This document shows, piece after piece, positions 3,785 to 43,168 of a stretch of DNA of 43,168 nucleotides; position 1 is the stretch's first letter, and each line of letters begins with the position of its first letter. The notes under the pieces are model-generated. The model was not told the origin of the DNA and did no database searches. It saw only the letters and a list, made by a program, of their open reading frames with translations. Made by a program: the position numbers and the translations under genes. Location: the IMG/VR virus record IMGVR_UViG_3300020420_000029, positions 1 through 43,168 of that record. One strand, written 5' to 3'. The DNA is from a virus.

Positions 3785-6333
3785 TAATTATCACCATCAG
3801 CAGCAGGTAACTGCAATTCAGCAGCGTACCCAGAATTATATTTTACGTCTCTAAGATATTTAACATCTACATTACTGAATAAAGTTTTGCCTGTTGCAAG
3901 TGTACCAAGCATATTAGCTATTGAAGCTCGATTACCCGGGGCTGAAAAAACAGCATTAACTTTTTTCATATATTCTTTAAAAGCAACAGAAGCTTGCTTG
4001 TTACCGTCAGGTATACCGTTAATGATATCTTCAGTAATTGGTGGGAGTTTTAAATTACTACCTGCGTCTGCCTGACTTAACCGTTCCAAAAGAAACAAAG
4101 CCCCTTTTACTTGTGCAGCAGTACCTGTGCCATTTGGACCCGGCAAATAAGCTTTAATGCCACTTTGTTCTACAAACGTAAGTAAACCCCTGTCTGTATT
4201 TCCAAACCCTACAGCTAAATTGTAGGTATCTTCACTCATAAGAGCTAACGGATTAATAAGCCTATCCTCAGCATTTCTATTTCCTATTTCTAGTAACGCT
4301 TGATTTAAGTTACCTAAATTAACTACTCTAACGCTGTCATCATCTCCTGCTCTGCTTTTCACTATTTCAATTGCTTTTTCAAGATTATCTGGTGTCGTTC
4401 CTAAGACCATAGCCAATATGTTTTTGCTTCTAGTCTTACCAACATCAACACGTTGTATATCAATACTTGTTGCAATTTCACTGTCTGTCCTACCACTAAA
4501 GTAGCCAAACTCATTCGGCTGATTAATTAGGTTTGTACCTGTAACTAGACGAACAACATAAGGCGCTATGAATTTTTTAATAGTTTGGCTATCAGGAGCT
4601 ACTCCATTCTTTTTTGCATAGCGCACATAAAAAGCATCTAGCTCTGCCCTTAGTACAGGGCTGTTGTGTATTTTAACTCGTAATGCTTGGCTAGATATAT
4701 TCAGCTCGTCTTTAAGAATTTTTTCTATTTTTGGAAATTGAATGCCTGATTTTTCTAAAGCGTCTTTTTCTATCTTAGCTCGTTTCTGTGCAATCTTTGC
4801 GGAAACTGTTTCGTAAGCATCAGCGCTAAGAAGAGACCGCAAGTCTCTATCGTTTTCGTCTGAGCCAGAATAGTTAGCAATAACATACGCAGCTCCGCTG
4901 TCGCTTTCTAACATCTGTAACAATACTTGGTCGTATGCTTTTCCGTTAGCTGTAGTCAGCGTTGTGGGAGAGCCGTTATTTTGTGCGTGAATAGACATAT
5001 CTGTTGTAGTTTCTACGTTACCAGACGCAGATGCTATTCTTGAAGATACATTGTAGTTAGCTGGTAATCTAGCTAGCAGCTCAGGCGGCGGTGTTTTGTT
5101 TTCTGAGATGAGCTTGTTAAACTCTCTGATAGCTTCTTTCTCGTCTACGACTACTCGTTCCTGATTTATTTTTGCCAGACCAGCAATGTAAGAGTTTGCT
5201 GCTTTAAGCATCTCTGGGTTTTTACCAGCGTATTTTTTTCTAACCTCTTCGTACAAACCAGCAATGTCATATAATTGTAGTTGACCGCCAGCTACACTAG
5301 TTATGTATTGTTTGTCAGTGCTATTTGGTTTTACTTGGTCAAGTAACTCGTTAACAAAATTTTGCCCACCTGCAATATCGCCATTCTTTCTGACCAGCTC
5401 TGTTAGCGTTGTAAGTTTTTCGCCTTGCAACACAGCTTTGCCTGTAGGGTTAGCAGAGCTTCTATAAGCATCTAAAAGTTTTTGTGCAGCGGCTGTATCG
5501 CCTACCGCCATAGCTTGTTTAATAGCACCCTCTACAACTAACGCTTGGTTTTCTTGTACAAGCTGGTCTTTTATTGCCGGGTCAGTAATACCTTTTTGAG
5601 CAGCTATACCTATATCGCTATCTAGCACTAATGATTTTACATTAGATAGAGTAGCCCCTAACGCAGTCTCGTTATTAAACTGAAGAGAACCTACTTCAGT
5701 GTAGTCAGTCAGCTTACCTGTAAACAGCAGCTCGTTCTTAGCCTTATAAGCTACGTCTTGAAATTTGTTTACGTTATTAACAAAAGCGTTTGTAGTTTTG
5801 TTTATGTAGTCATCAGCAGAAGCTGTACCCACACCCCCCATTTTAGTGGTGTGCAGTTCTTTAAGCCGTTTTATATTTTCTTGGTAATTGTCAGCTAAAC
5901 TTTTACTATCATCATAAACAAAACCAGCGTCCTCAAATTCTTTTCGTGCAATAGCGTATTTAGTTGCTACGACTGCACCGCTAGGGTCTTTGCTATCCAT
6001 CTCCCGGGACCAACCACCATTTATTCTTTTTAGTGCATCGTCACCTTTTAAAGTACCTACGCCGCCAAAGTCTGGGTCTTCTAGTAAGTAAGATTGCAGC
6101 TTGGTTATTTTACCTTCTAAGGCAACCAGCTCACGTTTGTCATTACCTTCTTGCCATTTACTTGCACCAGCAGCAACACCGTCTAACGCTTTTACCCAAA
6201 TATCTCTTTGTTCCCGTGTCCCGGCATCAACGTCCACTTGCTGCACGTTCATAAAACGAGTTTGCCCGTCAGACATATTTACGCTCTGATACGCTTTAGC
6301 TCCTTGGTTTCTAGGGGTAGGTATTCTTGCCAT
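3784..6333 (-). CDS. Internal virion (core) protein, 849 aa
   Basis: Large, mainly helical, Ala/Lys/Glu/Asp-rich protein with no enzymatic motif that I can see. A GTG at 6345 is possible, but ATG at 6333 (MARIPTPRNQ) is preferred because it gives the one-base TAATG overlap with the upstream stop, the same junction as at its own 3' end with the giant gene. It lies between a gp14-like core gene and the giant ejection protein, which is the position of gp15 in T7. I infer that it is part of the ejected core/channel assembly. No clear sequence similarity to T7 gp15 is visible, so the assignment rests on size, composition and gene order. Confidence 0.7.
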   Translation of the reverse strand: MARIPTPRNQGAKAYQSVNMSDGQTRFMNVQQVDVDAGTREQRDIWVKALDGVAAGASKWQEGNDKRELVALEGKITKLQSYLLEDPDFGGVGTLKGDDALKRINGGWSREMDSKDPSGAVVATKYAIARKEFEDAGFVYDDSKSLADNYQENIKRLKELHTTKMGGVGTASADDYINKTTNAFVNNVNKFQDVAYKAKNELLFTGKLTDYTEVGSLQFNNETALGATLSNVKSLVLDSDIGIAAQKGITDPAIKDQLVQENQALVVEGAIKQAMAVGDTAAAQKLLDAYRSSANPTGKAVLQGEKLTTLTELVRKNGDIAGGQNFVNELLDQVKPNSTDKQYITSVAGGQLQLYDIAGLYEEVRKKYAGKNPEMLKAANSYIAGLAKINQERVVVDEKEAIREFNKLISENKTPPPELLARLPANYNVSSRIASASGNVETTTDMSIHAQNNGSPTTLTTANGKAYDQVLLQMLESDSGAAYVIANYSGSDENDRDLRSLLSADAYETVSAKIAQKRAKIEKDALEKSGIQFPKIEKILKDELNISSQALRVKIHNSPVLRAELDAFYVRYAKKNGVAPDSQTIKKFIAPYVVRLVTGTNLINQPNEFGYFSGRTDSEIATSIDIQRVDVGKTRSKNILAMVLGTTPDNLEKAIEIVKSRAGDDDSVRVVNLGNLNQALLEIGNRNAEDRLINPLALMSEDTYNLAVGFGNTDRGLLTFVEQSGIKAYLPGPNGTGTAAQVKGALFLLERLSQADAGSNLKLPPITEDIINGIPDGNKQASVAFKEYMKKVNAVFSAPGNRASIANMLGTLATGKTLFSNVDVKYLRDVKYNSGYAAELQLPAADGDN

Positions 6334-13380: not shown

Positions 13381-13681
13381 CGAAATGGTTCTCCTCAAGC
13401 ATTGTTAATGTATGCGACTTGCTAGCTTCTTTGCATCTGTTAAACAGAGCAATGCCCACTTGCCTAGCACCCTCGTTGTAAGCGCTACTGTCGCTGGACG
13501 CTGGTACATGGCTGTTAGCCATCATATGACAATCATTAAAAATAATTTCATACAGGAACCTACGTCCTCGTTCTTCTTTAAGGACAAACATAAGGTCTCT
13601 ATCTTTGTCCTCTTGCAGCGCCTGAGCTTTTTTAACTTGTTGCTCATCGCTACTATCATGCACTACAAAATTGTTACTCAA
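13373..13681 (-). CDS. Bbp19-like head protein, 102 aa
   Basis: The core RGRRFLYEIIFNDCHMMANS, followed about 10 residues later by AYNEGARQVGIALFNRCKEA, matches the small Bbp19-like phage domain (G-R-x-F-L-x-x-I/L ... N-E-G-x-R-x-V-G). In BPP-1 relatives it is encoded between portal and scaffold, exactly as here. Its role is not established; an association with head assembly is inferred. It overlaps the portal stop by eight bases. Confidence 0.75.
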   Translation of the reverse strand: MSNNFVVHDSSDEQQVKKAQALQEDKDRDLMFVLKEERGRRFLYEIIFNDCHMMANSHVPASSDSSAYNEGARQVGIALFNRCKEASKSHTLTMLEENHFDE

Positions 13682-15407
13682 CGGATGCCCCCCCTTGTAA
13701 TAACTGGGTCAAAGCATTTGGTCTTTGAGTATCAGTTTGTGATAGTACTTTTGCATTCTGGGCAGTTTGCGCTTGCTGCATTTGTTGCATCTGCTGCATC
13801 TCCTGAGCTTGGCGGTCAGCTCTTATTTTGTCTACCTGTTCTTGGTCTACAAGCAAGTTAGCTGCGTTGCCCATTATTTCACTGTACTCTCGTATCGCCT
13901 TATCCGCATCGATGTTATCTACAATCTGTGGGAAGACGGCTACAAGATTACCTGCAAAACCTAGTGTACGTTCCATAGATGACGCAGCTACTGCTTGCTG
14001 CGCTTGAGCCAGTAATGACACATATTCAACACGCAGGTCTTGCCCTGCAATGCTCTCTGGTGGCTCTGGTATAATATTTTGTTCCGTTGCAAACGTGAAT
14101 ACATCGTCCATTAGTGGGTCCAGTAGTTCTACGTTTACTCTTTGCAGCACGGGTCCAAGCAGCACTAGCTTCTCTTCGTGCCTTTCGACAACCTCTGTTG
14201 CTGTCATCTGTCTACGGTCTGACTGTATCATCATTGCAAACAAGTCAGCGTAGAACCCTCGTTGTATTCTGTCCTGTACCTCTCGTATGTCCACCATCAT
14301 TTCTTGTAGTCGTGGTGTAACTTGATAGGCAGGTATAAATCCTTGACCGCCTTGTGTAGCGTCTACATATGTCGTACCGCCCGGGATGACCGTTGTTGGT
14401 CTACCCCTCAAGCTAGCAGGTGCTACCATGGGTGGGTTAACCATTTTATCGATTGCCTGAGCTTTACGCTTTTGCTGGTGTTGTAATTGCTTCACGTCAC
14501 CAAGGTAGTCCATTCCGGGAGAACGTCCGTAAACATCACCCGGCAACACGTCCCATCTAGCAATGTAAGCCGGGAAAGTATCGTAGCCACCTTCCTCTAG
14601 CACTTCATCATTGTCTGCGCCTTTTTCAAAGTAGCAGCTCATAAATGGTTTATTTTTCTTATCAGACTTAGTTGGGTCTATACCAAAGCGTGGCTGTATC
14701 ATATGCATGACAGTAACTAAACTGTCATAGTTTTTATTATTCCATAATCGTTTTGTAGCTGAGCTGACACCAGTCCAGTCTATGTTTCCTGTTTCTGGGT
14801 CTATACAGAATTTTTCTACAAGCTGTGCAACAGTCATAGTAAACTCACGCCCCAGCGTATCAATTCTACCCTGAGCGTTTTCTGCTACAACATACTCACC
14901 AGCGGTAAATGGTCGGAACCTAATAACATCATCAAAATTTCGTTGACGATATAACGGAGCTGTACCGAAAGCGCCTAGCTCTCCGTACACGTTGTATATC
15001 GTGTTATAGAAATTGCTTCGATGTAAAATATTACGACAAACTTTTTCTGACATCGCTAGCCAATTTTTAACGTCTGGCAGGTCCATCATATCAGGGTCAG
15101 ACAAAGCAAACCTAAACCAAGGACGGGCAGGGCTAGTCATTCCTGACATAAGCCCTGCCGCTAAGGTTCTCAGCGCCTGTGTTCCTGTGCTGTCAATTAT
15201 TTTGTTATTACGTCTACGCCCTCTGTTATTCTGACTATCAAGCAGAAAACGCCCCCGTCTAGGATACAGATAATCACTTATCTCCATCCAGTGACTACGC
15301 CAAGATGAGCGATAGTCTTCTAGCTGCTTGTACCTTTTGTGAAGGTTACCCCTCTTAGTTCCAGACACAGAGCTGCTGTACATATTTTCGGGTGAGAGCG
15401 CTACCAT
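13674..15407 (-). CDS. Portal (head-to-tail connector) protein, 577 aa
   Basis: Typical podovirus connector family: N-terminal RYKQLEDYRSSWRSHWMEISDYLYPRRGRFL, QALRTLAAGLMSGMTSPARPWFRF, a central YGRSPGMDYLGDVKQLQHQQKRKAQAIDKMVNPPM, and TATEVVERHEEKLVLLGPVLQRVNVELLDPL. The C-terminus is rich in Gln and Met (QEMQQMQQMQQAQTAQ), the barrel/tail region reaching into the capsid. It forms the dodecameric DNA entry ring and is the docking site of the terminase encoded upstream. Confidence 0.93.
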   Translation of the reverse strand: MVALSPENMYSSSVSGTKRGNLHKRYKQLEDYRSSWRSHWMEISDYLYPRRGRFLLDSQNNRGRRRNNKIIDSTGTQALRTLAAGLMSGMTSPARPWFRFALSDPDMMDLPDVKNWLAMSEKVCRNILHRSNFYNTIYNVYGELGAFGTAPLYRQRNFDDVIRFRPFTAGEYVVAENAQGRIDTLGREFTMTVAQLVEKFCIDPETGNIDWTGVSSATKRLWNNKNYDSLVTVMHMIQPRFGIDPTKSDKKNKPFMSCYFEKGADNDEVLEEGGYDTFPAYIARWDVLPGDVYGRSPGMDYLGDVKQLQHQQKRKAQAIDKMVNPPMVAPASLRGRPTTVIPGGTTYVDATQGGQGFIPAYQVTPRLQEMMVDIREVQDRIQRGFYADLFAMMIQSDRRQMTATEVVERHEEKLVLLGPVLQRVNVELLDPLMDDVFTFATEQNIIPEPPESIAGQDLRVEYVSLLAQAQQAVAASSMERTLGFAGNLVAVFPQIVDNIDADKAIREYSEIMGNAANLLVDQEQVDKIRADRQAQEMQQMQQMQQAQTAQNAKVLSQTDTQRPNALTQLLQGGASVE

Positions 15408-15628: not shown

Positions 15629-16114
15629 CTATATCTCCTTCCTTAATCCGATTGCATTGCGTTTATAGCCAAGCTTTTCATAAAACCTAGCTACTTTTTC
15701 GGTTTCCACGTCCGTTGAAATTCCAACGGAAATTTCCACACAGTTAAGCATTGTTGCCCATCGTTCAAATGCCCGGACGAGTAACAATGCTGCTCTAGTC
15801 TTCCTTTCTTTAGGTACGACATAGAACATGAGGTCAGAAGCATACACATCGTCAGTAAAATAATGTGCAACCGCAATCCCTGCAAATAAACCAATGCACT
15901 CCTCATCCTTCCACAGTAAGAAGCAACATTGATTTTTATTTTGCAAAGTGTCGTCAAACAACCTCTCTACTTTTTCTATAGAAAGTTTGCTATCTCTGTA
16001 TCGGCTTTCGGAGTGTATCGCTGGAACCATAGCTTTGACATGGACCCAATCTTGCGTCCCTATCTGCCGCAGCTCATACGGGTTACTCTTCTTTGTCGAT
16101 ACCTTCAATGGCAT
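15629..16114 (-). CDS. GNAT-family N-acetyltransferase, 161 aa
   Basis: SDLMFYVVPKERKTRAALLLVRAFERWA is GNAT motif A (beta strand, R-K-T-R-A-A loop, helix), and VARFYEKLGYKRNAIGLRKEI is the C-terminal motif B. ATG at 16114 is preferred over a GTG at 16138 because AAAGGA precedes it at normal distance. It resembles the acetyltransferase genes often placed between terminase and portal in podoviruses (T7 5.7/13-type positional neighbours aside, the target is unknown). Only weak resemblance to the other GNAT at 6848-7300 is visible, so it is not an obvious duplication. Confidence 0.8.
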   Translation of the reverse strand: MPLKVSTKKSNPYELRQIGTQDWVHVKAMVPAIHSESRYRDSKLSIEKVERLFDDTLQNKNQCCFLLWKDEECIGLFAGIAVAHYFTDDVYASDLMFYVVPKERKTRAALLLVRAFERWATMLNCVEISVGISTDVETEKVARFYEKLGYKRNAIGLRKEI

Positions 16115-16174
16115 TTTTCTATAATCCTTTTCTGCCACCTTATATTATTTTTTGTGTTGCGTCTAGTCGCTTGA

Positions 16175-17662
16175 TTAAAAAGGGTCATACTCATGCACTG
16201 CCTCGCCATAGATAGGAGTACCCTTATAACCCTGTCGGGTAGGCGCTACCGGGAATGCAAAGGTCAAAGCCAGTGCGTCTGCAAGGTCAGGTGATGATAA
16301 TCCCCTTTTCTTCATATCTTCTTTTTTCTCAAGCTGTATTTGGTTTCTAGTATTATAGCCATATTCTACGGATGTCAGGTCAGCTCTGATGTCCGGGTCA
16401 TCGTCCAGCATAATACCGCTGGTCATAGCGTCACGCAGGTTGCCCCAGCATTGCGCTCGTAAATTAGCGTAGCCAGAAACGGTAGCCTTGGACCCGAAAT
16501 TTACCTCTACTATCTCAAGCCCAAGTTGTCGGCATCGGTCTATTACACCGCCGCCAACACCACCGCCGTCTATAAAAATTGTATTTGGATTTTTCTTTGA
16601 TGCTATTGCTGCTACCTCTGCTGCCAGCGTCATGGTATCTACGCCCCGATATTTTTTAATACCTTGTGATACACAGTCCCTGCCTTGACGTAGCCAGATA
16701 ACAGACTGGTCATCCCCGAACCGGGCAACGTCTACGCCCATAACAAGTGGCTCATGTGGTTCAACAGCTATGTCTTGGTTCATGCAGTTATCCACAACCT
16801 CGCTGGGGATAAATTGCATAGATGCAGCGCTAGGGAATACGCCTCGTACCCTAACCTTAACAAAATCGCTGTCTTCCCCGTAATCTTCTACCCACTGAGC
16901 TAGTAGCTGTTTGTTAGTTATTGCTACGTCTCTGCTGTCTATAAAGCGCCTGATGAAACGATGTTTGTGTCTACCTATCATGTTTTGGTAAAAACGCCCG
17001 GAGTTTCTGGTCGGGTTGCCAAAGTCAAATGTCATTGGCTCACCATCTGTAAGACCACCCTCACGAACCTCGAAAATTTTTTCTGGGATAGCAGAAGCTT
17101 CGTCAAATATATAGAACGGTGTACTGTTGGCTGCGTGAAGACCAGCGAATGCTTCAGAGTTCTCTTCCCGGCTAGTCTGTGCATCAACACGCCAAGTTTC
17201 TCTGTGCATTTTATGATATAAGTTCATTGACCCACCCCCACTATTGAGATGATACCAATGTTTTGTAATGGACATATTGTGCCACTTTGCAAGCTCTGCC
17301 CACGTTTTTGTCCGTAGCTGCTCCGCAGTGTTGGCTGTCACTACACCTTTTGCAAAAGGTCTGGTGTCCATCACCCATTTTACCAGCCAAGCCGTCAGTG
17401 TCGACTTACCTATTCCATGCCCGGAGGCGCACGTCACTCTCAGGGGTGGGACTGGGTCAGTGCCATTGAAGTTACGGCTGGAGACCTCATTACCTATCAT
17501 CGTCAGGTACTCTTGCTGCCAGTCAAGCGGTCCGGCTCTTCCATTTAGGATACCGCTGCCCCACGGATAAGACAGCATGACATGACGCAATGGGTTGGCG
17601 TAGCATTCTGCCATTGCATCTGCTAGCTGCATATCGATGTCGATGTGGTTAGGTTGGTTCAT
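16175..17662 (-). CDS. terL: Terminase large subunit, 495 aa
   Basis: ATPase domain: Walker A CASGHGIGKST at about residues 79-89, and Walker B FYIFDEAS at about 184-191. Nuclease domain: GVDVARFGDDQS (about 308), IFIDGGGVGGGVID (about 365), and SPDLADALALTF near the C-terminus supply the RNase H-fold acidic residues. ATG at 17662 is chosen over a GTG two codons upstream. It packages DNA through the portal, together with the unusual small subunit encoded at 18124. The nuclease domain cuts concatemers. Confidence 0.95.
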   Translation of the reverse strand: MNQPNHIDIDMQLADAMAECYANPLRHVMLSYPWGSGILNGRAGPLDWQQEYLTMIGNEVSSRNFNGTDPVPPLRVTCASGHGIGKSTLTAWLVKWVMDTRPFAKGVVTANTAEQLRTKTWAELAKWHNMSITKHWYHLNSGGGSMNLYHKMHRETWRVDAQTSREENSEAFAGLHAANSTPFYIFDEASAIPEKIFEVREGGLTDGEPMTFDFGNPTRNSGRFYQNMIGRHKHRFIRRFIDSRDVAITNKQLLAQWVEDYGEDSDFVKVRVRGVFPSAASMQFIPSEVVDNCMNQDIAVEPHEPLVMGVDVARFGDDQSVIWLRQGRDCVSQGIKKYRGVDTMTLAAEVAAIASKKNPNTIFIDGGGVGGGVIDRCRQLGLEIVEVNFGSKATVSGYANLRAQCWGNLRDAMTSGIMLDDDPDIRADLTSVEYGYNTRNQIQLEKKEDMKKRGLSSPDLADALALTFAFPVAPTRQGYKGTPIYGEAVHEYDPF

Positions 17663-17855
17663 AGTCACTCTTCGTCTTCATCTCTGCGACTAGACTATGT
17701 CCTGTGCTGCACGGCATGGAATTGTACGGGGCAATGTCACGCTGCCCACAATACTTACATACCTGCGCTGAACCGAACCCGGGCGGTGGTGCTACCCACT
17801 CATGCCCAGTCGAGTTCAATGATGTTATCTTCTCTATGTCTGTACCAATTGCCAT
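17649..17855 (-). CDS. Small zinc-ribbon-like protein, 68 aa
   Basis: Contains H-E-W-V-A-P-P-P-G-F-G then CKYCGQRD and a later C (NSMPC), plausible metal ligands. It overlaps the upstream 17800-18018 gene by 56 bases in another frame. If translation starts at an internal TTG (about 17819), the overlap falls to about 20 bases. The 3' end overlaps the terL start. The CxxC core makes it look real, but start and function are uncertain. Confidence 0.5.
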   Translation of the reverse strand: MAIGTDIEKITSLNSTGHEWVAPPPGFGSAQVCKYCGQRDIAPYNSMPCSTGHSLVAEMKTKSDYEPT

Positions 17856-18018
17856 TCTTAGTCACCATCCAGCCGTCACCGTCTAGACATATGTGGTCAC
17901 CGTCCTCTAGGTCTGCCATGTCTATCAAGGTGACCCCGGGACCAAGCGCTTGTTCTAACAGCGTGTCAGGTATGTCTGTGAGTTTACGACTAGTCATAAT
18001 TATATACAGGTAGTCCAC
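17800..18018 (-). CDS. Hypothetical acidic protein, 72 aa (or 65 aa)
   Basis: Two starts are possible: GTG at 18018 (MDYLYIIMTSRKL) or ATG at 17997 (MTSRKLTDIPD). Neither has a strong ribosome binding site. The body LTDIPDTLLEQALGPGVTLIDMADLEDGDHICLDGDGWMVTKNGNWYRH ends in a compact beta-like GDGWMVTKNGNWYRH motif. Unknown function. It lies between the small basic gene and terL in the packaging cluster. Confidence 0.5.
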   Translation of the reverse strand: MDYLYIIMTSRKLTDIPDTLLEQALGPGVTLIDMADLEDGDHICLDGDGWMVTKNGNWYRHREDNIIELDWA

Positions 18019-18019
18019 A

Positions 18020-18121
18020 TTACTGCTTCTTCTTCGGTGCAGCCTTTGCTTTCTTCCTGACCTTTACCTTTGCCTTGGGCTTGCTCTTTGGCATAGCCTT
18101 ACCGTATCCATATCCGGGCAT
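18020..18121 (-). CDS. Very small basic protein with KVKVRKK tag, 33 aa
   Basis: MPGYGYGKAMPKSKPKAKVKVRKK followed by AKAAPKKKQ. The start is two bases after the stop of the GIY-YIG/TerS gene, and translation is probably coupled. It is almost entirely Lys, Pro, Ala and Val after residue 9. It shares the K-V-K-V-R-K-K string with the 10736-10912 protein. Its place next to terminase suggests nucleic acid or packaging-related contact, but that is inference. Confidence 0.65.
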   Translation of the reverse strand: MPGYGYGKAMPKSKPKAKVKVRKKAKAAPKKKQ

Positions 18122-18123
18122 AG

Positions 18124-18894
18124 TTAACCTTCCTTCCTGTGTTGGTTGATGTCGATGACCTCAGCAGCTTTCATGCGTCCACGTTGCAATCTCTCAACGA
18201 TGTCATCAGTCATTGTGATTTCTTTACGCTCAGCAGGGTATGCATCGATGAGCTTACCCAGCTCTCTGAATGCAGAGACCATTGCTCCAGCTTGTGCAGT
18301 TTGGTCAGCAAGCTCAGCAGCTTTCTGTAGACCTGTAATGATGTCAGCAAAGTTTAACTGGGATTTAGCTATAACTGGGGCTTTTATCTCTGCCACCCTT
18401 TGGGTAATCTTTGGGTGACTACCAAGCTTGCTTGCCTCTTCATTTATCTGCTTGTCGTTCATCCTGCTAGTATCGTAAGCAGCTCTGTAACAATCAGACA
18501 ATGACTGCTGCCCCTCAGCAACGAGCTGGGCAAACTGCTCTTGCTTTGGTGTCAGTTTGTAGCGTTTGCCGTCACCAGCTTTGGTCATCTCTGACCTGTC
18601 ACCGCCACCACCTGCAAGACTGTTCAACAAGTTTGGTGTCTGTTCAATAAGCTTTGCCTCATACTGATACGCTTCGTCCTCATCGCTAAACCGCTTCAGT
18701 ATATTTACAATGACCTCTTCCCCTGCATCGATAACCTCACGCACACGTCTAGCCTTTGGGCTAGCGTCAGTGTCTCTGATATCAAGTCGATGAGTGTGTG
18801 CATATCCTCTGGACGCTGTGCCTTTGCCAACGTAAAAGACCTGCAAGTCACGGGGGTCGGTCAATGTGTATACATAAAATTTTTGTACTGCCAT
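18124..18894 (-). CDS. terS: GIY-YIG endonuclease fused to terminase small subunit, 256 aa
   Basis: Residues 6-95 form a GIY-YIG nuclease: FYVYTL (GIY strand, Y7/Y9), VFYVGKG (YIG strand, Y21), R29 in GKGTASRGYAH at the place of the catalytic arginine, and E79 in QYEAKLIE for the metal ligand, ending NLLNSLAGGGG. A glycine-rich linker leads at residue 114 to LTPKQEQFAQLVAEGQ, then DCYRAAYDTSRM, INEEASKLGSHPKI and RVAEIK, the helix-turn-helix pattern of Terminase_2-type small subunits. terL is the next large gene. The two domains are in one uninterrupted frame. A normal TerS recognises the packaging site; here recognition and site-specific cutting may be joined. The fused nuclease could alternatively be a domesticated homing enzyme. 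Confidence 0.88.
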   Translation of the reverse strand: MAVQKFYVYTLTDPRDLQVFYVGKGTASRGYAHTHRLDIRDTDASPKARRVREVIDAGEEVIVNILKRFSDEDEAYQYEAKLIEQTPNLLNSLAGGGGDRSEMTKAGDGKRYKLTPKQEQFAQLVAEGQQSLSDCYRAAYDTSRMNDKQINEEASKLGSHPKITQRVAEIKAPVIAKSQLNFADIITGLQKAAELADQTAQAGAMVSAFRELGKLIDAYPAERKEITMTDDIVERLQRGRMKAAEVIDINQHRKEG

Positions 18895-18903
18895 GCGACT
18901 AGA

Positions 18904-19380
18904 CTAATCTATTTGTTTCATTTTGTCTATTAGATATAAACAAAGTAGCGCAGCTTCGGCAATCCCATCATTTGCTTTGACGTTCCAAATATCTTTTCTG
19001 CCAAACTTTAACTTAGCCATATCCAGACTGGCTTGCTTTTCTGCTGTCAGTCCCATTGCCTTTTTCCATGTCGCTGGCGTTACATACTCAATGCGTTCAG
19101 CTACCTGTTGTATGACAGCCTCAACAGCTCCGTAGCTCCGTCCAAACTGAAAGCTACTACTGACACCCTGCCTTGGCATTGCATGGACCTGTTCAATAAT
19201 AGCTATGTCAATCTTTACCTCTTCCAGCTCTTGCAATATAGCAACCGTATCAATCATTTTCTTTTTACGGACGTGTAACACAGGCATTCTAAACGCTTTA
19301 ACTATCTTACCCAATTGACCATAAGCTTTTACAACTGCAATTCCACCAGCTTGTCCCGGGTCTACGCCAATCACAAACAT
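18904..19380 (-). CDS. RuvC-like Holliday junction resolvase, 158 aa
   Basis: RNase H-fold resolvase: FVIGVDPGQAGGIAVV with D7, then IAIIEQVHAM with E63, and a C-terminal NDGIAEAALLCLYL with D138 and E142. These are the four acidic metal ligands of the RuvC family. VTPATWKKAMGL is also family-typical. It cuts branched replication and recombination intermediates so that the concatemer can be packaged. It is the first substantial gene after the repeat and leader region at 19381-19551 and precedes the packaging genes. Confidence 0.92.
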   Translation of the reverse strand: MFVIGVDPGQAGGIAVVKAYGQLGKIVKAFRMPVLHVRKKKMIDTVAILQELEEVKIDIAIIEQVHAMPRQGVSSSFQFGRSYGAVEAVIQQVAERIEYVTPATWKKAMGLTAEKQASLDMAKLKFGRKDIWNVKANDGIAEAALLCLYLIDKMKQID

Positions 19381-21934: not shown

Positions 21935-21969
21935 ACTATAGGAAAAAATAATTAAGTCAAACACTGATT
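21935..21969 (-). promoter_or_regulatory. Leftward early promoter with operator half-match
   Basis: Minus strand reads ATCAGTGTTTGACT, then TAATTATTTTTTCC, then TATAGT. The first part matches the operator of the rightward promoters in 11 of 15 positions, with -35 TTGACT (21960-21955) and -10 TATAGT (21940-21935). The spacer of 14 is short, so the -10 assignment is tentative. It faces the rightward promoter eight bases or so away, forming a divergent control region. Confidence 0.55.
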
Positions 21970-21976
21970 AAATTAC

Positions 21977-22013
21977 TATCAGTGCTTGATAATTATGAAA
22001 TAATGCTTATATT
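21977..22013 (+). promoter_or_regulatory. Early promoter 1 with palindromic operator
   Basis: TATCAGTGCTTGATA (21977-21991) is a perfect TATCA-N5-TGATA palindrome, and its last six bases are the -35 box TTGATA. After a 16-base spacer, -10 TATATT is at 22008-22013, followed by AATAGTGTAA. The same arrangement with identical spacing occurs at 28275 and 30060. Confidence 0.8.
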
Positions 22014-22046
22014 AATAGTGTAAGCAATTAATCAACGGAGAAAATA

Positions 22047-22358
22047 ATGATTTATGAAGTTCTACAAAACGTGAAGCCAGAGACAAAAGGCACTAGCGAT
22101 TACTTTGCGGCTACCTTTGACGGTTGCCTCGACAAAGACTTTTTCTTTTTTAACTACGGTGTTGTTTGTGAGATTGAAGCTGACAGCATCGATGATGTTT
22201 TTCGGATTGGCAACATTGGTCCAGAAGAAAACATCAAGCGCATTGCAGACCGTATGCACAGCATTTCTGTTGGTGACGTTATCCGGGTCAAGGGTGACTT
22301 AGCCAGCAGCGTTGTGGTCGCAAGCTTTGGGTTTAACAAAATTGGAGAGGTGGCGTAA
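22047..22358 (+). CDS. Small early protein with SVGD motif, 103 aa
   Basis: First gene of the rightward operon, preceded by AACGGAGAAAATA. Sequence elements: FAATFDGCLDKDFFFFNYG, VFRIGNIGPEENIKRIADR, and MHSISVGDVIRVKG followed by ASFGFNKIGEVA. The S-x-S-V-G-D-V ... S-x-G-F pattern resembles small YodL-like or antirestriction-associated phage domains, but I cannot assign a family with certainty. As the first early product it is a candidate host-takeover or defence-related protein. Confidence 0.75.
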   Translation: MIYEVLQNVKPETKGTSDYFAATFDGCLDKDFFFFNYGVVCEIEADSIDDVFRIGNIGPEENIKRIADRMHSISVGDVIRVKGDLASSVVVASFGFNKIGEVA

Positions 22359-26484: not shown

Positions 26485-28269
26485 ATGGATTATCAGAAAA
26501 TTACAAGCTATCAGTCGCTGAAAAGTATTTGCCGACAATGTGCAGAGATAGGACCAACAGCGCTAGACTTTGAGACAACCAGCCTGTCCCCCCGGGACGG
26601 TAAGGTAAGGCTCGTCAGCTTGTGCAATAAAAAAGTAAAAGTGGTTGTGGATTTTGATGCTATCGGTGGTGGTTTCAGAAACTGCGCCAAGCTGTTTAGC
26701 AAAGGCAAATGGGTAGTATTTAACGTAGGTTTTGAAGCTAGGTGGTTTTTAGATGCTAAGCAGCAACCAGAGCTGCTGGATGTTGGGAACCTGCGCCGTG
26801 CAATTATTGGCGGTGGCAGTTTTAGTTTAGCCAATCTGGTCCAGTGGGATTTAAAAAAAGAGATGAGCAAAGAGCAGCAAGCCAGTAACTGGTCTGCGCC
26901 AACACTGTCGCAAGAGCAGCTCGACTACGCTTATAAAGATGCAGAGTTGACATATGAATTGTGGAAGCACTGGGAAGCTGAGGCTGATGAGGGACGCTGG
27001 GCTGGGTTTAGATTATTAAATGATATGCACCAAGCCGTCATTGAAATGGAAGATGCCGGGATGCTGGTGGATAAACAGACCCACCGTAAATTGATAGAGC
27101 TATGGCATCAGGAAAAACAGAACCGGGTAAAAGCTATTCGTGAGCTGGTGACCCAAGCTGAGGTTAGCAACATAAATTCAGACAGCCAGTGGTCAGATTA
27201 TTTTTCTAAAACCATGCCCGATAAATTTTTGAGAGGCTGGACCAAAACAGAAAAGACCGGGCAGCTCAGCATGACAACAGAGACACTAAAAAGACTGGCA
27301 GGTATGGTTCCCGGTACGCCGCTGGAAACTTTCTTTGATGCGCTAAGCGAATACAAGACCATAAATAAATATATAAATTCGTTTGGTGAAAACATCATCA
27401 ATGCTGCAAACTTGAACGGCGGTAGAATACAAGCGAGGTTTAATATTGGTTATGCGAGAACAGGTAGATTTTCATCATCGGGTCCAAACCTACAGCAGAT
27501 ACCCCGGGACAAAGAACTGCTGGGCAAAGAGACTAGCGTCAGAAGCTCGTTTGTTGCTGGTGTTGGTCGCAAGCTTGTTAGCCTTGATTATTCTGGAATT
27601 GAGCTTCGTGTTCTTGCTCTCTTGTCTGGTGACGAACAACTGCTGGACGATGTTGTAAATGGTGATGTCCATTCTGAAGTAGCCTCTGTCATGGCTGGTC
27701 GCAAGATTGATAAAGCTAAACCAGCAGACAAAGCGCTGCGGTCCAAAGCTAAAGGCGTAAGCTTTGGTATTATCTATGGCAGTGGTGCTAACGGGCTGTC
27801 AGCTACTATGCGTGTCCCTACAGACAAAGCGCAAGACTACATAGACTACTGGTCAACACGCTATGCCAAGGCGTTTAACTACCGTTTCCAAATGATGGAA
27901 GAGGCAACTAAAACCCGGTTTATCCGTATGGTTGATGGCGGCACTATCTACATGGGTAAAAACCCGGACCTGCCTAAGTGCGCTAATTATCCTGTCCAAC
28001 GTGCAGCATTGTCAATTATGGCTAGGGCTTTAATACGCCATAGAACGTCACTGGTAGCCGAAAGGTCTTCTGGTGGGCAACGTATGTCCAGAATGCTTGC
28101 CACCATCCATGACGCTATTATAGATGAAGCGTCTAGTCGTGACGCAGCTAATTTACTGGAGATTATGCATAACGACATGATTAAAGGGTATCTGGACGTG
28201 TTTCCCGGGACACCAACAAACAATCTAGTTGAGGGTGGTTTTGGTGATAACTGGGGTGAATTAGGATAA
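26485..28269 (+). CDS. Family A DNA polymerase with 3'-5' exonuclease, 594 aa
   Basis: Exonuclease: LDFETTS (D28, E30), FNVGFEARWFLD, and YAYKDAELT (Exo III). Polymerase: motif A VSLDYSGIELRVLAL at about 365, motif B RSKAKGVSFGIIYG at about 417, motif C TIHDAIIDEAS at about 540. Two substitutions stand out: Gly for the usual Gln in DYSQIE, and Ala for Glu in HDE. The residue equivalent to E. coli Pol I F762 is Phe, which in phage surveys goes with virulent lifestyles. There is no 5'-3' exonuclease domain. AAAGGATATATTA precedes the ATG. It copies the genome together with the primase-helicase. Confidence 0.95.
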   Translation: MDYQKITSYQSLKSICRQCAEIGPTALDFETTSLSPRDGKVRLVSLCNKKVKVVVDFDAIGGGFRNCAKLFSKGKWVVFNVGFEARWFLDAKQQPELLDVGNLRRAIIGGGSFSLANLVQWDLKKEMSKEQQASNWSAPTLSQEQLDYAYKDAELTYELWKHWEAEADEGRWAGFRLLNDMHQAVIEMEDAGMLVDKQTHRKLIELWHQEKQNRVKAIRELVTQAEVSNINSDSQWSDYFSKTMPDKFLRGWTKTEKTGQLSMTTETLKRLAGMVPGTPLETFFDALSEYKTINKYINSFGENIINAANLNGGRIQARFNIGYARTGRFSSSGPNLQQIPRDKELLGKETSVRSSFVAGVGRKLVSLDYSGIELRVLALLSGDEQLLDDVVNGDVHSEVASVMAGRKIDKAKPADKALRSKAKGVSFGIIYGSGANGLSATMRVPTDKAQDYIDYWSTRYAKAFNYRFQMMEEATKTRFIRMVDGGTIYMGKNPDLPKCANYPVQRAALSIMARALIRHRTSLVAERSSGGQRMSRMLATIHDAIIDEASSRDAANLLEIMHNDMIKGYLDVFPGTPTNNLVEGGFGDNWGELG

Positions 28270-28274
28270 TTTAA

Positions 28275-28311
28275 TATCAGTGCTTGATATCTTCGTAAAA
28301 ATGCTTATATT
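28275..28311 (+). promoter_or_regulatory. Early promoter 2 with palindromic operator
   Basis: TATCAGTGCTTGATA (28275-28289), 16-base spacer ending AATGCT, -10 TATATT (28306-28311), then AATAATATAA. It is nearly identical to promoters 1 and 3 and drives the small-gene cluster after the polymerase. Confidence 0.8.
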
Positions 28312-28338
28312 AATAATATAACCATTACGGAGATGATT

Positions 28339-30044: not shown

Positions 30045-30059
30045 TTTAAATTATTTTAT

Positions 30060-30096
30060 TATCAGTGCTTGATAATTTTGATAGAATGATTATATT
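30060..30096 (+). promoter_or_regulatory. Early promoter 3 with palindromic operator
   Basis: TATCAGTGCTTGATA (30060-30074), 16-base spacer, -10 TATATT (30091-30096), then AATAGAGTAA. It drives the single ArdC-like gene between its own terminators. Confidence 0.8.
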
Positions 30097-30124
30097 AATA
30101 GAGTAACAACTAACGGAGAAATAA

Positions 30125-31024
30125 ATGCCTAACAAAAATGAAAAAATCCAAAAGGAAGTAACCGCTCATATTATCGCCAAGCTTGAAGCTGGTGTACGCC
30201 CATGGTCTCAGCCATGGCAGGGTGGTCTTGGTATTCCTTATCCTACTCGCCATGAAGGTTCTAAGTATCAGGGTATTAATGTCCTGTTGCTTTGGATAGC
30301 TGCCATGGAGAAAGGTTTTAGCGGTCAGTACTGGATGACTTACAATCAAGCTAAGCAGTACGGCGGTCAGGTCCGTGGCGGCGAGAAAGGCAACATGATT
30401 GTGTTTGCCAAGCCTATCAAGGTCAAAGACCTTAACAATGATGACCCAGACGCTAAGAAAGATATCTTCTTCTACAAGACTAGCAAGGTCTTTAACGTGT
30501 CACAGATTGATGGTCTGCCTGAGCGTTTCTATCCTAAGCCTGTAGTCGAGATTGTTAACCCTGACCAGCGTGTAGCTGCTGTAGATGCATACGTTGCCAA
30601 CACAGGCGCTAACATCTCAGAAGACGGTAACAAAGCTTTTTATGCGCCGGGTCCAGATAAGATTGTAATGCCAGCTTTTGACAAGTTTAAATCTGCTTTA
30701 GATTTTTACTCTACTGAGCTGCATGAGCTGGTTCACTGGACTGGTCATAAGAGCCGTGTCAATCGTGACTTTAAAGTTGGTGAAGGTCGTAAAGACTACG
30801 CCAAGGAAGAGCTGGTAGCTGAGATGGGTGCAGCGTTCTTATGTGCCGCCCTTGGCTTAGAAAGCACTGTGCGTGATGACCACGCTGAGTACCTTGCTAG
30901 CTGGCTCAAGGCTCTTAAAGATGACCATAAGTATATCTTCCAAGCTTCGTCTGCTGCATCTAAGGCAGTAGCATTCCTAGACAACTTGCAACCTGTAGAG
31001 GATGAGGTCTCTAAGGTAGCCTAA
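30125..31024 (+). CDS. ardC: ArdC-like antirestriction protein with zincin domain, 299 aa
   Basis: The N-terminal ArdC ssDNA-binding domain has the family pattern IIAKLEAGVRPWSQPW, GSKYQGINVLLL and YWMTYNQAKQYGGQVRGGEKG. The C-terminal zincin metallopeptidase-like domain has HELVHWTGH (H200-x3-H204) and KEELVAEMGAAFL (E near 237) as a third ligand. In plasmids ArdC protects entering single-stranded DNA from restriction. Here the gene has its own promoter, ribosome leader (CTAACGGAGAAATAA) and terminator, so it can be expressed independently. Its presence fits the strong loss of restriction-type palindromes from this genome. Confidence 0.9.
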   Translation: MPNKNEKIQKEVTAHIIAKLEAGVRPWSQPWQGGLGIPYPTRHEGSKYQGINVLLLWIAAMEKGFSGQYWMTYNQAKQYGGQVRGGEKGNMIVFAKPIKVKDLNNDDPDAKKDIFFYKTSKVFNVSQIDGLPERFYPKPVVEIVNPDQRVAAVDAYVANTGANISEDGNKAFYAPGPDKIVMPAFDKFKSALDFYSTELHELVHWTGHKSRVNRDFKVGEGRKDYAKEELVAEMGAAFLCAALGLESTVRDDHAEYLASWLKALKDDHKYIFQASSAASKAVAFLDNLQPVEDEVSKVA

Positions 31025-40200: not shown

Positions 40201-43168
40201 CTGGAAACCAAAATAATTAGCAACCGCTCCCGGCGATACAGTGTCTTTGCCTGTACCGTAAATAACAGCCGTGCCTATCTTAGGTAACTTAGCCAGTCCG
40301 TCTTCGCCAATTAGCTCTACCAGCAATTTTCTATTAATCTTGCCTACGTCTAGCTCTACTTTGTTTCCTAATGCGTCTGTGCCTTTTGTTAGCCCGTACA
40401 TTAGTTTGTATATAGGCTTTTGGTTTAGCTCTGCTTCAACACCGGGTCGTAGCTCTTCTGCCCTAGCGTCACGCTCTTCTAGTTGACCTTTTTCAATATC
40501 TTTTAATTTTTTAGCAACGTGTTTCGCTTTAGCTTGTGCCTTTGCCCGGTCTACCTTCTGCCGATATTCGTTATATTCTTTTTGGGTCATGCCAGCTTCT
40601 TGAGCTGTATTAAACATAGCAGATAACTTGTATTGGTCTTGCATGGTGGCTAGCTCACTATCAGTAGCCAGCATACGGTCCATAACTGCTTTGACCTCTA
40701 GACTATATTCTACATCTAGCCCGTTGTAGCCGCCCATTCGTTTAATAGCTCTGTAGACACTAGTCATCCACGCTGCAAACCGTGTAAAGGCATCCAGCAA
40801 TGTAAATGACGGGGCTTCGCCTTTTTGCAAATAATTTTCAAAACCTCTGGCAAATTGCTCATGCATAGCTATTGCCACATACCGGGTAGTACTATCCCCT
40901 CTTAGGTCACCACTCATTATAAACTTTTTGAGTTGGTTCTCTGACATATTTTGTATCTTAGCAGCAGCTTCTTTGTTCTTATCTTTGTTCGCTCGTTTAA
41001 CTGCTTCTTCTCTAATTGGTCCTGTGCGGCTAGCCCACCAGCGTTTCACTGTGGTCCAATCTTTATCTAGTTTGCCGCCAAACTCTGACGCATCTTCTTT
41101 GAGCTGCTCTAACCAGAAATGTCCGGCTTCGTGCAAAAACGTACTACGGTCTGCACTTTCAAAAATTTGAATTAATGTTACTGGCTTACCGTTCTGGTCT
41201 ATAATTTGGTCTTTTGGTGTAAACGTACCCCCAGTGTTTGTTTCTCTAGTTTGCTCTAATGTTAGACCTTCAGAACCCGGCAATTGACTTAACGTAGTGT
41301 CTACTGCTGGCTCACCTGTCGTTACATATTGTAACGGAAGTAAGTCTACTTTCTGGTCAGCAAACGGTCTTTCAGATAACGGCTTGCCCTTAGCTTCTGG
41401 ATTAAAGTTTACCCAGCTATTCTGTCCTCTGGTTTCAGATGTTAATGCCCATCTAGCCCACGGGCTTTTAGTCATTAACATATGATTACGCCACGCAGCT
41501 TCTTCGCCTAGCGGTCCAAAACCTACCGTACTCATTGTATGAGCAAAGTAATCGTGTACCGCTCGTAGCAGGTCGTTATACAGCAACGGCACACCGTTGA
41601 TATCAACACGCCCACTGTCACGCAATAACGGGTGGTCTTCGTATACTACACCCGGTGGACCAAACTGGTCTGGAATTGTCTGGAATATAAACAGGTGATT
41701 GTTTGCGTTTACATCGTTACGCATTTCCTCAGACATTTTCTTGCCTGAGTACGGTTCGCCTTTACCTGTAAAAATTTCTACTTTGATAGGTAGCGTGTCA
41801 AATTGTTCTAGCAGCTCTACGCTTAATTCTTCGTATGCTCGTCTGACATCTGGGTTGTCTAAATTATTTAAGCCCATATCGTTATAGGCTTCCATAATTT
41901 CTGTCTGAGTATCTATCTGGTCTTGCGTCAGTTCACCAGCTTGCTCAGTAGGTGTCACGGTTCGTTTAGCTAACCGTGACGATAACCTTATTGCTGTTTT
42001 GTTTGCTTCGTCTGTTTTCGGGGAACGAAACTCACCTTTGACTTCCCGGTAGCTATTTGTGGCTCCGTATCCACTACCGTAAGCCCATAGGCGCTCAATC
42101 GTTCTGGTAACCTGTTGTGCATTGCTTCCAATAAGCTCTGCGGCTCTTCCGATTGCGGTGTCAAATTCTTCGATTGCTTTTGCGTCATTTGGGTCTCCTA
42201 AGTAATACGCAAGCAGACTGCCGTCCTCACCTACGGTGAAGCCGACTAGACCACTTTCGTCTATTATTTTTGTCAGCTCTTGTTCACTGAGCTGCTCTTT
42301 CATTTGGAATGTTACCACAGAAGTATTAAAACTTCCATCAGTATATTGATAACCTACTCTTTTTTTATTTTTAGAGGGTTTTTCTCTAACGTGAAATTGC
42401 TCTTGGTTAAACATTTCTGCAAACCTAACCAAAGCAGCTAACGCTCTTGGGCGGTCTTCGTTCCGCATTTCTATTTCTAAAGCAAGAGACGGTTCAGCTT
42501 CCCCACCATAAAATCCGTAACTAGGTACTTTAGTTATGGTGAGGGCTGGCTTTTTCTTTTTGCCTGTGCCTGTCATTATACCTTGCGTATGATAGACTAA
42601 GGCGTTGTACGCTATTTCCTGTAGCGCAACAAAAGCGTCCCGGTCTCCGTTGACTGCCGCTTTATGTAAATTGTTTAGACCCGGTATTGTCCCGGTAGCA
42701 GATGACAAGCCTATTCGTATCTTGCCTGTTTCCGCTTCCCATTTTCTCTGCTTACGCAGCTCCATTAATCTTTTAGCTGTACGCTTCAGATGGTCCACGT
42801 CAGCTTTGCTCATACCTTTAGTTACATCACCTTTTTCTGTAGACCGCCCTGCAAACTCTTTTCTAGGCTGGCTCAGTTCTTGTAACTGTGATTGATAACC
42901 ACCTTCTTTTAGTACTTGTTGATAGACCCCTGTATTTAGCAACGTGCTAAAATCAGGAACGTCACCTATCATTTCATGTGTCAGGTCACCGTCTTCTAAT
43001 ATCTGTAGCTCTGTTCTAGTCTCGCCTTTAGCGCTAGTTTTTTCGTACAAAGCTTTTGCCATAGACCAGATAGTCTCTTGTACTTCCATAGGGTCCATGT
43101 TGGCTTCAATAGCAGCTCTTCGTGTCAACACCGTCATAGCCATGTATCCGGGGCTTTTCCCAAAACAC
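37228..43168 (-). CDS. Giant polyvalent-type virion protein, C-terminal 1,971+ residues, with zincin motif
   Basis: Continuation of the frame that starts at 3784. In full-length numbering, residues about 1240-1275 hold a GYMAMTVLTRRAAI segment. Residues about 1765-1830 hold a block containing HDYFAH, FGPLGEEAAWRNH and ETRGQNSWVNF, which I know from large phage polyvalent proteins. Residues 1913-1917 are HEAGH, a zincin metallopeptidase motif (HExxH) within TFLHEAGHFWLEQL. Long charged, probably coiled-coil helices cover roughly 2050-2500. The C-terminus has two hydrophobic segments (about 3006-3030 and 3045-3065) and resembles the large-polyvalent-associated C-terminal domains (LPD38-like; from memory). 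Known family behaviour is packaging in the virion and entry into the host with DNA. A protease or host-targeting activity is inferred from the motif. At the very contig end (43162-43168) the sequence departs from bases 77-83, so the last two codons there are unreliable. Confidence 0.85.
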   Translation of the reverse strand, partial: CFGKSPGYMAMTVLTRRAAIEANMDPMEVQETIWSMAKALYEKTSAKGETRTELQILEDGDLTHEMIGDVPDFSTLLNTGVYQQVLKEGGYQSQLQELSQPRKEFAGRSTEKGDVTKGMSKADVDHLKRTAKRLMELRKQRKWEAETGKIRIGLSSATGTIPGLNNLHKAAVNGDRDAFVALQEIAYNALVYHTQGIMTGTGKKKKPALTITKVPSYGFYGGEAEPSLALEIEMRNEDRPRALAALVRFAEMFNQEQFHVREKPSKNKKRVGYQYTDGSFNTSVVTFQMKEQLSEQELTKIIDESGLVGFTVGEDGSLLAYYLGDPNDAKAIEEFDTAIGRAAELIGSNAQQVTRTIERLWAYGSGYGATNSYREVKGEFRSPKTDEANKTAIRLSSRLAKRTVTPTEQAGELTQDQIDTQTEIMEAYNDMGLNNLDNPDVRRAYEELSVELLEQFDTLPIKVEIFTGKGEPYSGKKMSEEMRNDVNANNHLFIFQTIPDQFGPPGVVYEDHPLLRDSGRVDINGVPLLYNDLLRAVHDYFAHTMSTVGFGPLGEEAAWRNHMLMTKSPWARWALTSETRGQNSWVNFNPEAKGKPLSERPFADQKVDLLPLQYVTTGEPAVDTTLSQLPGSEGLTLEQTRETNTGGTFTPKDQIIDQNGKPVTLIQIFESADRSTFLHEAGHFWLEQLKEDASEFGGKLDKDWTTVKRWWASRTGPIREEAVKRANKDKNKEAAAKIQNMSENQLKKFIMSGDLRGDSTTRYVAIAMHEQFARGFENYLQKGEAPSFTLLDAFTRFAAWMTSVYRAIKRMGGYNGLDVEYSLEVKAVMDRMLATDSELATMQDQYKLSAMFNTAQEAGMTQKEYNEYRQKVDRAKAQAKAKHVAKKLKDIEKGQLEERDARAEELRPGVEAELNQKPIYKLMYGLTKGTDALGNKVELDVGKINRKLLVELIGEDGLAKLPKIGTAVIYGTGKDTVSPGAVANYFGFQTFEEMMNALNVFIPFEQGVNQQLSAALLDEGPVVEEGATSEAIASVHETDLRSEVLQAELDALRSSEPAFKIKFIKAMAKQRLLAKTVREINPTKFLAAEKKHAREAGKALRKGDKISAYRHKFQQLVNYEMAKEAIRLQKQIAKQRTTLVKYKGDRKKFPNIDADYMDRVRSILDLYSLGPRMSEQRRAKLELQALARWMAAAEENDGAIFEYPAVLAEADRVKNFNELSVADFEDLYNSIETIVKQGRLKKKLLVGKERRDRATLIAQLVSKLQSRPTAKATKARKKNITTTDQSLLDKGAIRLSYLDAALLKVELLLEMMDNNEPNGIWHQTIYQPFADASAAEQDMLGKISARINAKLNALPKDVRKKLGKRVDVGELALPGEKWDRGSLLMLALNTGNESNLQKLINGEREYGRNINEELIDKALSALTKEEWELIQDIWNISEEIYPAVDQIYRNENGRSPAKIEPRSITNQHGTWTGGYFPMLYDGSRSKKGEDIDNMDALQAFQSSTVKASLNSSMTKERSEAFAAPIDFRIERLLNVFDRPVHFITHYEAVRNAKKILNSPEIVDVVTEKVGAAYLRELQNWVGAIAANNENQPPTNAWETLALGVRNNVTVAVLGLSYSTMAAQLLGYTATVDRLMADTTYGPISAAVVTKDILLGVKQAIDPKTRKMVFDLSGEMRNRLESTDREVRTALRTFKGKQGIRARVSEMAMLAIAGIQMYGVDVPTWLAAYNRALRAEPNNVEGAVKYADRVVRISQTAGGLKDLNEVQRKAGIMKIFTMFYSFFALLYGLTRQITGEVRLKQPLTVAKAAARIFVLITVAEAAQALLTDKVPDFDEEDDETGEKKTTVEKWLLTRTVNTLGGTVPFVRDIVGGFVSDYGYSMSPVESFGENLIRAADYLTDKYDYVTDVDADPEDDPELQRIRPLITTLGTIFGLPGAIQVNRTLSAWIADNDEELDEDLKPSWFDYIAGYNKEKAKKRVE
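43086..43161. repeat. Terminal repeat of the contig (copy of bases 1-76)
   Basis: Bases 43086-43161 are identical to 1-76. This marks circular closure of the assembly at 43,085 bp. It is an assembly overlap, not evidence of short terminal repeats in the virion. The seven bases after it (43162-43168, AAAACAC) differ from bases 77-83 (GGGACGC) at four positions, all G to A. Confidence 0.9.

Follow-up and report, generated by a model that had tools for sequence, protein, structure and literature searches.

Why would the DNA-recognition subunit of a phage packaging machine carry a nuclease of its own? This question is raised by one gene in the window, by which we mean the whole stretch of DNA analysed here, positions 1 to 43,168 of the IMG/VR virus record IMGVR_UViG_3300020420_000029 (43,168 nucleotides). 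The small terminase, TerS, counts as a recognition factor without catalytic activity, and the placement of the first packaging cut is still debated. An earlier note, made from the sequence alone, had proposed that a single frame at this locus joins a GIY-YIG nuclease to a Terminase_2-type TerS. Our analysis confirms this, since the 256-aa frame on the minus strand is uninterrupted and profiles match both halves. The gene and its parts are as follows.

18124..18894, minus strand: GIY-YIG-TerS fusion gene, an uninterrupted open frame of 256 aa plus stop, with complete homologues on other contigs
18601..18885, minus strand: GIY-YIG nuclease domain, residues 4-98 (profiles, structure matches, family alignment)
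18556..18600, minus strand: flexible linker, residues 99-113 (pLDDT < 50 at residues 98-110; swap boundary in loci L041/L042)
18127..18555, minus strand: TerS part, residues 114-256 (phrog_51; 4zc3 by Foldseek; Pam5 TerS 21di by profile)

That the N-terminal half is a GIY-YIG nuclease is certain. As a single sequence it matches Pfam PF22945 (LEM-3_GIY-YIG) above the cut-off (1.2e-9), and it also matches PHROG 5356 (8.5e-23), PADLOC PD-T4-3 (7e-17) and the solved structure 9u75 (1.6e-13). The earlier note correctly named Y7, Y21, R29 and E79 as catalytic residues; Y9, H33 and N91 belong to the set too, which in the window protein comprises Y7, Y9, Y21, G23-K24-G25, R29, H33, E79 and N91. The C-terminal half is identified as a small terminase less firmly from the single sequence and clearly with the family. 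The window sequence alone falls below the cut-off against Pfam Terminase_2 (0.0066) and matches the phrog_51 TerS at 2.5e-9, while Terminase_2 (PF03592) is matched by 20 of 32 members of the fusion family (best 1.6e-11) and the family profile matches the Pam5 small terminase structure 21di at 7e-14. This part consists of N-terminal helix-turn-helix (HTH) helices, a central helical hairpin and a C-terminal tail, as do the Terminase_2 TerS proteins of SF6 phage (3zqp/4zc3), cyanophage Pam5 (21di) and epsilon15 (gp1). Known Terminase_2 TerS proteins are likewise encoded upstream of terL, but they are about 130-200 aa long and have no catalytic domain.

Structure prediction, a check that the earlier note had proposed, agrees with this division. 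Two AlphaFold2 models (mean pLDDT 71 and 75, pTM 0.37-0.38) contain two folded parts joined by a linker disordered at about residues 98-110, the mutual placement of the parts being left unpredicted. The nuclease part has strands at 6-12, 19-26 and 62-69 and helices at 46-56 and 72-85, and Foldseek matches it to CMoRE/PD-T4-3 (9u75/9u7u) in both models. The TerS part of the first model resembles the DNA-binding domain of SF6 TerS (4zc3; prob 0.97, TM-score by target 0.75, E-value 0.66), and that of the second model gave no TerS match, so that the TerS assignment rests mainly on the sequence profiles.

The closest solved relative of the nuclease is thus CMoRE/PD-T4-3, a type IV 5hmC restriction endonuclease of E. 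coli (PDB 9U75, 9U7U), with which it shares 40 of 92 aligned residues (43%). The third tyrosine of the CMoRE GIYxY-YIG signature corresponds to Y9, which every fused row covering that position and all 19 comparison rows contain. CMoRE is built of an N-terminal GIY-YIG domain, a linker and a C-terminal site-choosing domain, cuts as a dimer or higher assembly, and acts on modified duplex DNA (PMC12923530). The window protein repeats this layout of nuclease, flexible linker and separate C-terminal specificity domain. The window nuclease is of the CMoRE/PD-T4-3 defence type and not of the I-TevI/NUMOD type, and a Pfam scan of the fused proteins detected GIY-YIG and Terminase_2 domains alone, with no NUMOD-type DNA-binding module.

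The fusion is not confined to the window. The same protein occurs on seven further IMG/VR contigs at 84-99% identity, a TerL-based search found the fusion in nine more distinct loci with TerLs 50-69% identical to that of the window, and with a family search the number of distinct fused proteins rose to 36, the 37th alignment row (L317) having a different arrangement. The domain pair therefore recurs in other phages, where the earlier note had suggested looking for it, and the 31 other fused proteins that were aligned are 31-99% identical to the window protein. An assembly join of two genes, which the earlier note had named as a possible refutation, is ruled out by the presence of the complete fusion on many independent contigs. 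Its second concern, loss of catalytic residues in homologues, was likewise looked for, and no catalytically dead or degraded copy was seen among the 36 fused proteins. Y9, Y21, G23-K24-G25, R29, E79 and N91 are invariant in every row with the position present; of the 37 rows that include L317, 35 have Tyr and one has Phe at position 7, and 33 have His and three have Ser at position 33. The dN/dS values, estimated among the window, L005, L006 and L008, are about 0.07-0.13 in the nuclease domain and 0.07-0.2 in the TerS part. Both domains are under purifying selection, which together with the invariant catalytic residues rules out a decaying nuclease domain and bears out the view that this is a stable fusion. 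Two jumbo phages, Erwinia pEa_SNUABM_22 and Vibrio phi-ST2, were rejected as full-length relatives, having the GIY-YIG domain alone in common.

Such conservation also bears on the idea that TerS retains the nuclease fold solely for DNA binding or as a structural extension. Extra N-terminal TerS domains without nuclease function do exist, as in the FtsK-gamma-TerS fusion of Bacillus phages Sam46 and Sam112 (PMC8190038), where, as in the window, an added N-terminal domain is followed by a Terminase_2 domain. However, the domain added in those phages only binds DNA, whereas the one added here has a GIY-YIG nuclease fold whose catalytic residues are all invariant in fused and unfused relatives, and we consider a purely structural role highly improbable.

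The position of the gene was described in the earlier note as directly upstream of terL. It does lie upstream of an intact TerL, but 459 bp with three small ORFs intervene. On the minus strand the order is primase-helicase, RuvC-like resolvase, fusion gene, three small ORFs, TerL, GNAT acetyltransferase, small ORF and portal. The features that concern us are listed below, together with an anti-restriction gene elsewhere in the window.

18904..19380, minus strand: RuvC-like Holliday-junction resolvase (phrog_1770, 4.6e-27), directly upstream of the fusion gene
18020..18121, minus strand: 33-aa highly basic ORF, read off the sequence, immediately downstream of the fusion gene
17800..18018, minus strand: 72-aa small ORF in the TerS-TerL interval, with a 75-aa counterpart at the same position in L006
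17649..17855, minus strand: 68-aa ORF directly preceding TerL, with a Cys-x2-Cys-Gly motif (zinc-ribbon-like)
16175..17668, minus strand: TerL large terminase (phrog_2, 1.3e-42), with Walker A/B and nuclease aspartates D313, D367 and D464 intact
15629-16138, minus strand: GNAT acetyltransferase in the TerL-portal interval
13674..15407, minus strand: portal (head-to-tail connector) protein (PF12236, 1.4e-171)
30125-31024, plus strand: anti-restriction protein (phrog_7245, 4.6e-98)

Almost every fused locus with enough sequence has TerL downstream, and the order resolvase, GIY-TerS, small ORFs, TerL is preserved across TerLs that are merely about 50% identical. None of the small ORFs that separate the fusion gene from TerL matched a TerS family where tested, and in relatives a standalone TerS occupies the slot of the fusion gene. 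The 68-aa protein, which has no family match, follows the pattern HxW..PPPG.G....CxxCG, and its counterparts precede TerL in fused and unfused relatives. A GNAT acetyltransferase is annotated right after TerL in Pseudomonas phage HU1 as well. The Walker motifs and the three nuclease aspartates of TerL are kept in all 22 fused-lineage TerLs checked, and the GIY-YIG domain is therefore ruled out as a substitute for a lost TerL nuclease.

The resolvase next to the fusion brings up a further possibility, namely that the GIY-YIG domain is a debranching nuclease mounted on the packaging complex, trimming branched DNA ahead of the motor. LEM-3 relatives, after which the matching Pfam domain is named, cut branched DNA, and the fusion is encoded beside a junction resolvase. 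T4 and T7 assign debranching to separate endonucleases. In the window, too, a separate resolvase already adjoins the fusion gene, and a RuvC-like or Hjc-like nuclease fills this slot in many relatives, fused and unfused. Moreover, the substrate of the closest solved relative is modified duplex DNA and not junctions, and we hold a debranching role to be very unlikely. The use of an Hjc-like nuclease by some relatives suggests that interchangeable resolvases are tied to packaging.

The genome ends say little about the mode of packaging. The window is a complete circular map, with bases 1-76 repeated at 43086-43161, and in close relatives the end and start of the window are contiguous while their contigs open elsewhere, so that nothing points to fixed terminal repeats. 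On this sequence evidence pac and cos packaging are indistinguishable in the window and its close relatives. A direct repeat of about 60-80 bp, 78-81% identical, occurs at 21967-22049, 28267-28333 and 30050-30127; its three copies lie in gaps near the starts of rightward genes and are perhaps a shared promoter or regulatory element.

Does the nuclease keep company with the terminase genes where the two are not fused? Among 72 free-standing viral relatives of the nuclease, 15 are followed within 500 bp by a TerL on the same strand, a count whose TerL profiles were seeded partly from those same loci, and none has a nearby TerL on the opposite strand; no bacterial relative out of 79 is followed by TerL in this way. 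An independent search with phrog_2 gave TerL matches in 21 of 50 such contigs, and by coordinate arithmetic nine of these have it no more than about 450 bp downstream of the nuclease. The ORF between nuclease and TerL was identified through PHROG as a small terminase of one of four families in L107, L109, L113, L114 and L126, and is TerS by position only in L111, L112, L122, L180 and L184. The order nuclease, TerS-sized ORF, terL is found in the isolates Rhizobium phage RHph_Y1_10 (L180) and Sulfitobacter phage pCB2047-C and also in the metagenomic genome ctHz2215, and the catalytic residues are conserved in the unfused terS-neighbour nucleases too. Jumbo phages and a number of other large phages have their relatives of the nuclease at other positions. 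The packaging module of RHph_Y1_10 holds two GIY-YIG nucleases, the second being an ORF at 4347-4961, annotated as a homing endonuclease, between the TerS-sized ORF and terL.

A pair of proteins that is fused in one lineage and encoded by neighbouring genes in others usually has a joint function. TerS rings bind the packaging site via N-terminal HTH domains (PMC9611059), and in phage HK97 a separate HNH protein, gp74, stimulates TerL cleavage at cos (PMC9410871). The HNH-terS-terL module of HK97 resembles the fusion in having an extra phage nuclease in the terminase module, but gp74 is a separate protein of unrelated fold, whereas the window protein has a GIY-YIG fold joined to TerS. With the architecture of CMoRE, this precedent favours a TerS-guided packaging nuclease, a GIY-YIG counterpart of gp74, a reading that in our judgement is about evenly balanced between right and wrong. 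The gene would then encode a two-part small terminase with a CMoRE-type GIY-YIG domain, a flexible linker and a complete TerS, whose subunits would assemble as a ring on viral DNA. As the nuclease is on the N-terminal side of the HTH, several nuclease domains would be placed next to the TerS-bound DNA, most likely cutting at or near the packaging (pac/cos) site and acting together with TerL, as gp74 does in HK97, to the presumed benefit of packaging. The wider proposal, in which there is a family of packaging machines with a nuclease-bearing recognition subunit, GIY-YIG-TerS cuts the packaging site and the unfused strings are its two-gene form, seems to us a little short of an even chance.

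For a packaging role speak the 36 conserved fusions, intact residues, low dN/dS, packaging-module context and unfused nuclease-terS-terL strings, which at the sequence level suggest it. Against it, an extra nuclease is not obviously needed where TerL keeps its own, and many relatives of the same TerL clade manage without one, using a short TerS-like protein of about 100 aa. In addition, no reproducible packaging site came out of a synonymous-constraint scan, in which codons 145-168 showed a dip when the window was compared with L006 but not when L272 was used, and comparable dips appeared elsewhere.

The bearers of the fusion are a lineage of mostly uncultured small phages, and in the TerL tree all fusions known at that stage fall within one supported clade, interspersed with relatives that have the short TerS-like protein in the same slot, which requires six changes. 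This short protein (GGRKKGTPNKTT type) replaces the fusion in L028, L029, L031, L033, L036, L038, L039, L045 and L050, and in some of these, as when L045 is compared with the fused L047, its C-terminal tail looks common to both kinds of TerS. The later-found fusions L276, L281, L285 and L302 adjoin TerLs that are only distantly related, which means that the fused gene is also passed from one lineage to another. The nuclease tree, which is built on few columns and weakly supported, places the fused domains in what is essentially a single clade (two changes), apart from the free-standing terS-neighbour nucleases and the bacterial CMoRE group; that fused and free-standing forms are separate branches, if on a weakly resolved tree, is a further point against the packaging reading.

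Movement is also seen within the gene. Between L041 and L042 the flanking DNA is 87-91% identical and the TerS protein 96%, but the nuclease halves only 48%, and the unmatched stretch (L041 2506-2841, L042 1490-1860) extends from the start codon to residue 108, which is the domain boundary in the linker. Other pairs have halves shuffled in both directions: the window and L276 are 67% identical in the nuclease and 28% in TerS, L296 and L300 92% and 59%. Such independent exchange need not be shown by a tightly matched packaging nuclease. Furthermore, the TerS N-terminal motif LTxKQ stands ahead of the nuclease in three viral ORFs, abutting it directly in L113 and L320 and as part of about 29 TerS residues in L317, with a further TerS-sized or TerS-like ORF and then TerL downstream in all three; it precedes the nuclease in none of 81 bacterial homologues. 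In L317 these residues (MALTAKQQCFVAEYLIDLNATQAATRAGY) are joined to the GIY-YIG domain at 3791-4486, followed by a second TerS-like ORF at 4470-4898 and then TerL, an arrangement that looks like a nuclease inserted into an old terS. The swaps and TerS remnants mark the 5' end of terS as a repeated joint for the nuclease, which fits homing as the origin of the fusion, whatever its present role.

These are the observations on which the strongest alternative draws, in which a homing or allele-exclusion nuclease, with the conserved 5' end of rival phages' terS as its target, settled at that site. Being fused to terS, it could not be lost without losing terS, and it would cut co-infecting phages with another terS allele and be copied by recombination. 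The L041/L042 swap with its boundaries at the start codon and linker, the other shuffled pairs, the TerS motifs before viral nucleases and the unfused alleles among relatives all accord with it, as does the report that T5orf172 (GIY-YIG) homing genes are found most often near terminases (PMC10448857), a locus at the boundary of genetic exchange. T5orf172 homing genes, however, are free-standing, whereas the window nuclease is in frame with an essential packaging protein and its residues are intact in all copies. Homing genes usually decay, and the fused family contains no dead member; a group I intron search gave no Rfam match and thus no intron, no NUMOD-type domain accompanies the nuclease, the resident TerS is whole in the fused proteins, and the fused nuclease remains essentially one clade over deep TerL divergence. 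We think homing or allele exclusion unlikely, though a serious contender and second to the packaging reading.

A nuclease half that differs between near-identical phages is also what an arms race would produce, and the GIY-YIG domain might be a weapon that cuts host or rival phage DNA, with its specificity coming from TerS or from a modification mark. That its closest solved relative is a defence enzyme and that the window also bears an anti-restriction gene would agree with this. CMoRE, however, serves bacterial defence and the fusion sits in a phage packaging locus, where its constant position beside terS and terL suggests a late packaging-linked role and not an early attack gene. The C-terminal domain by which CMoRE senses 5hmC is absent from the window protein, replaced by TerS at residues 114-256, and the run of four acidic residues in the CMoRE autoinhibitory loop is missing, the loop being gapped and holding scattered Asp. 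A weapon against foreign DNA is accordingly a rather remote prospect in our estimate.

The components of a TerS-guided packaging nuclease are already known singly: the GIY-YIG domain, TerS, nucleases in terminase modules and extra N-terminal TerS domains. A literature search covering few subscription papers found no published description of a GIY-YIG-TerS fusion and no report of a CMoRE-type nuclease as a recurring neighbour of terS. Our results extend the CMoRE nuclease subfamily from bacterial defence to phage packaging loci and suggest, from sequence comparison, that a phage DNA-recognition subunit may also cut DNA. A conserved TerS with its own nuclease would offer a single-protein test of recognition and cutting as one step. 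If the nuclease is one of homing or exclusion, it shows a selfish cutter locked into an essential gene; if the packaging reading is true, GIY-YIG nucleases would be a second widespread class of packaging nucleases beside the HNH proteins.
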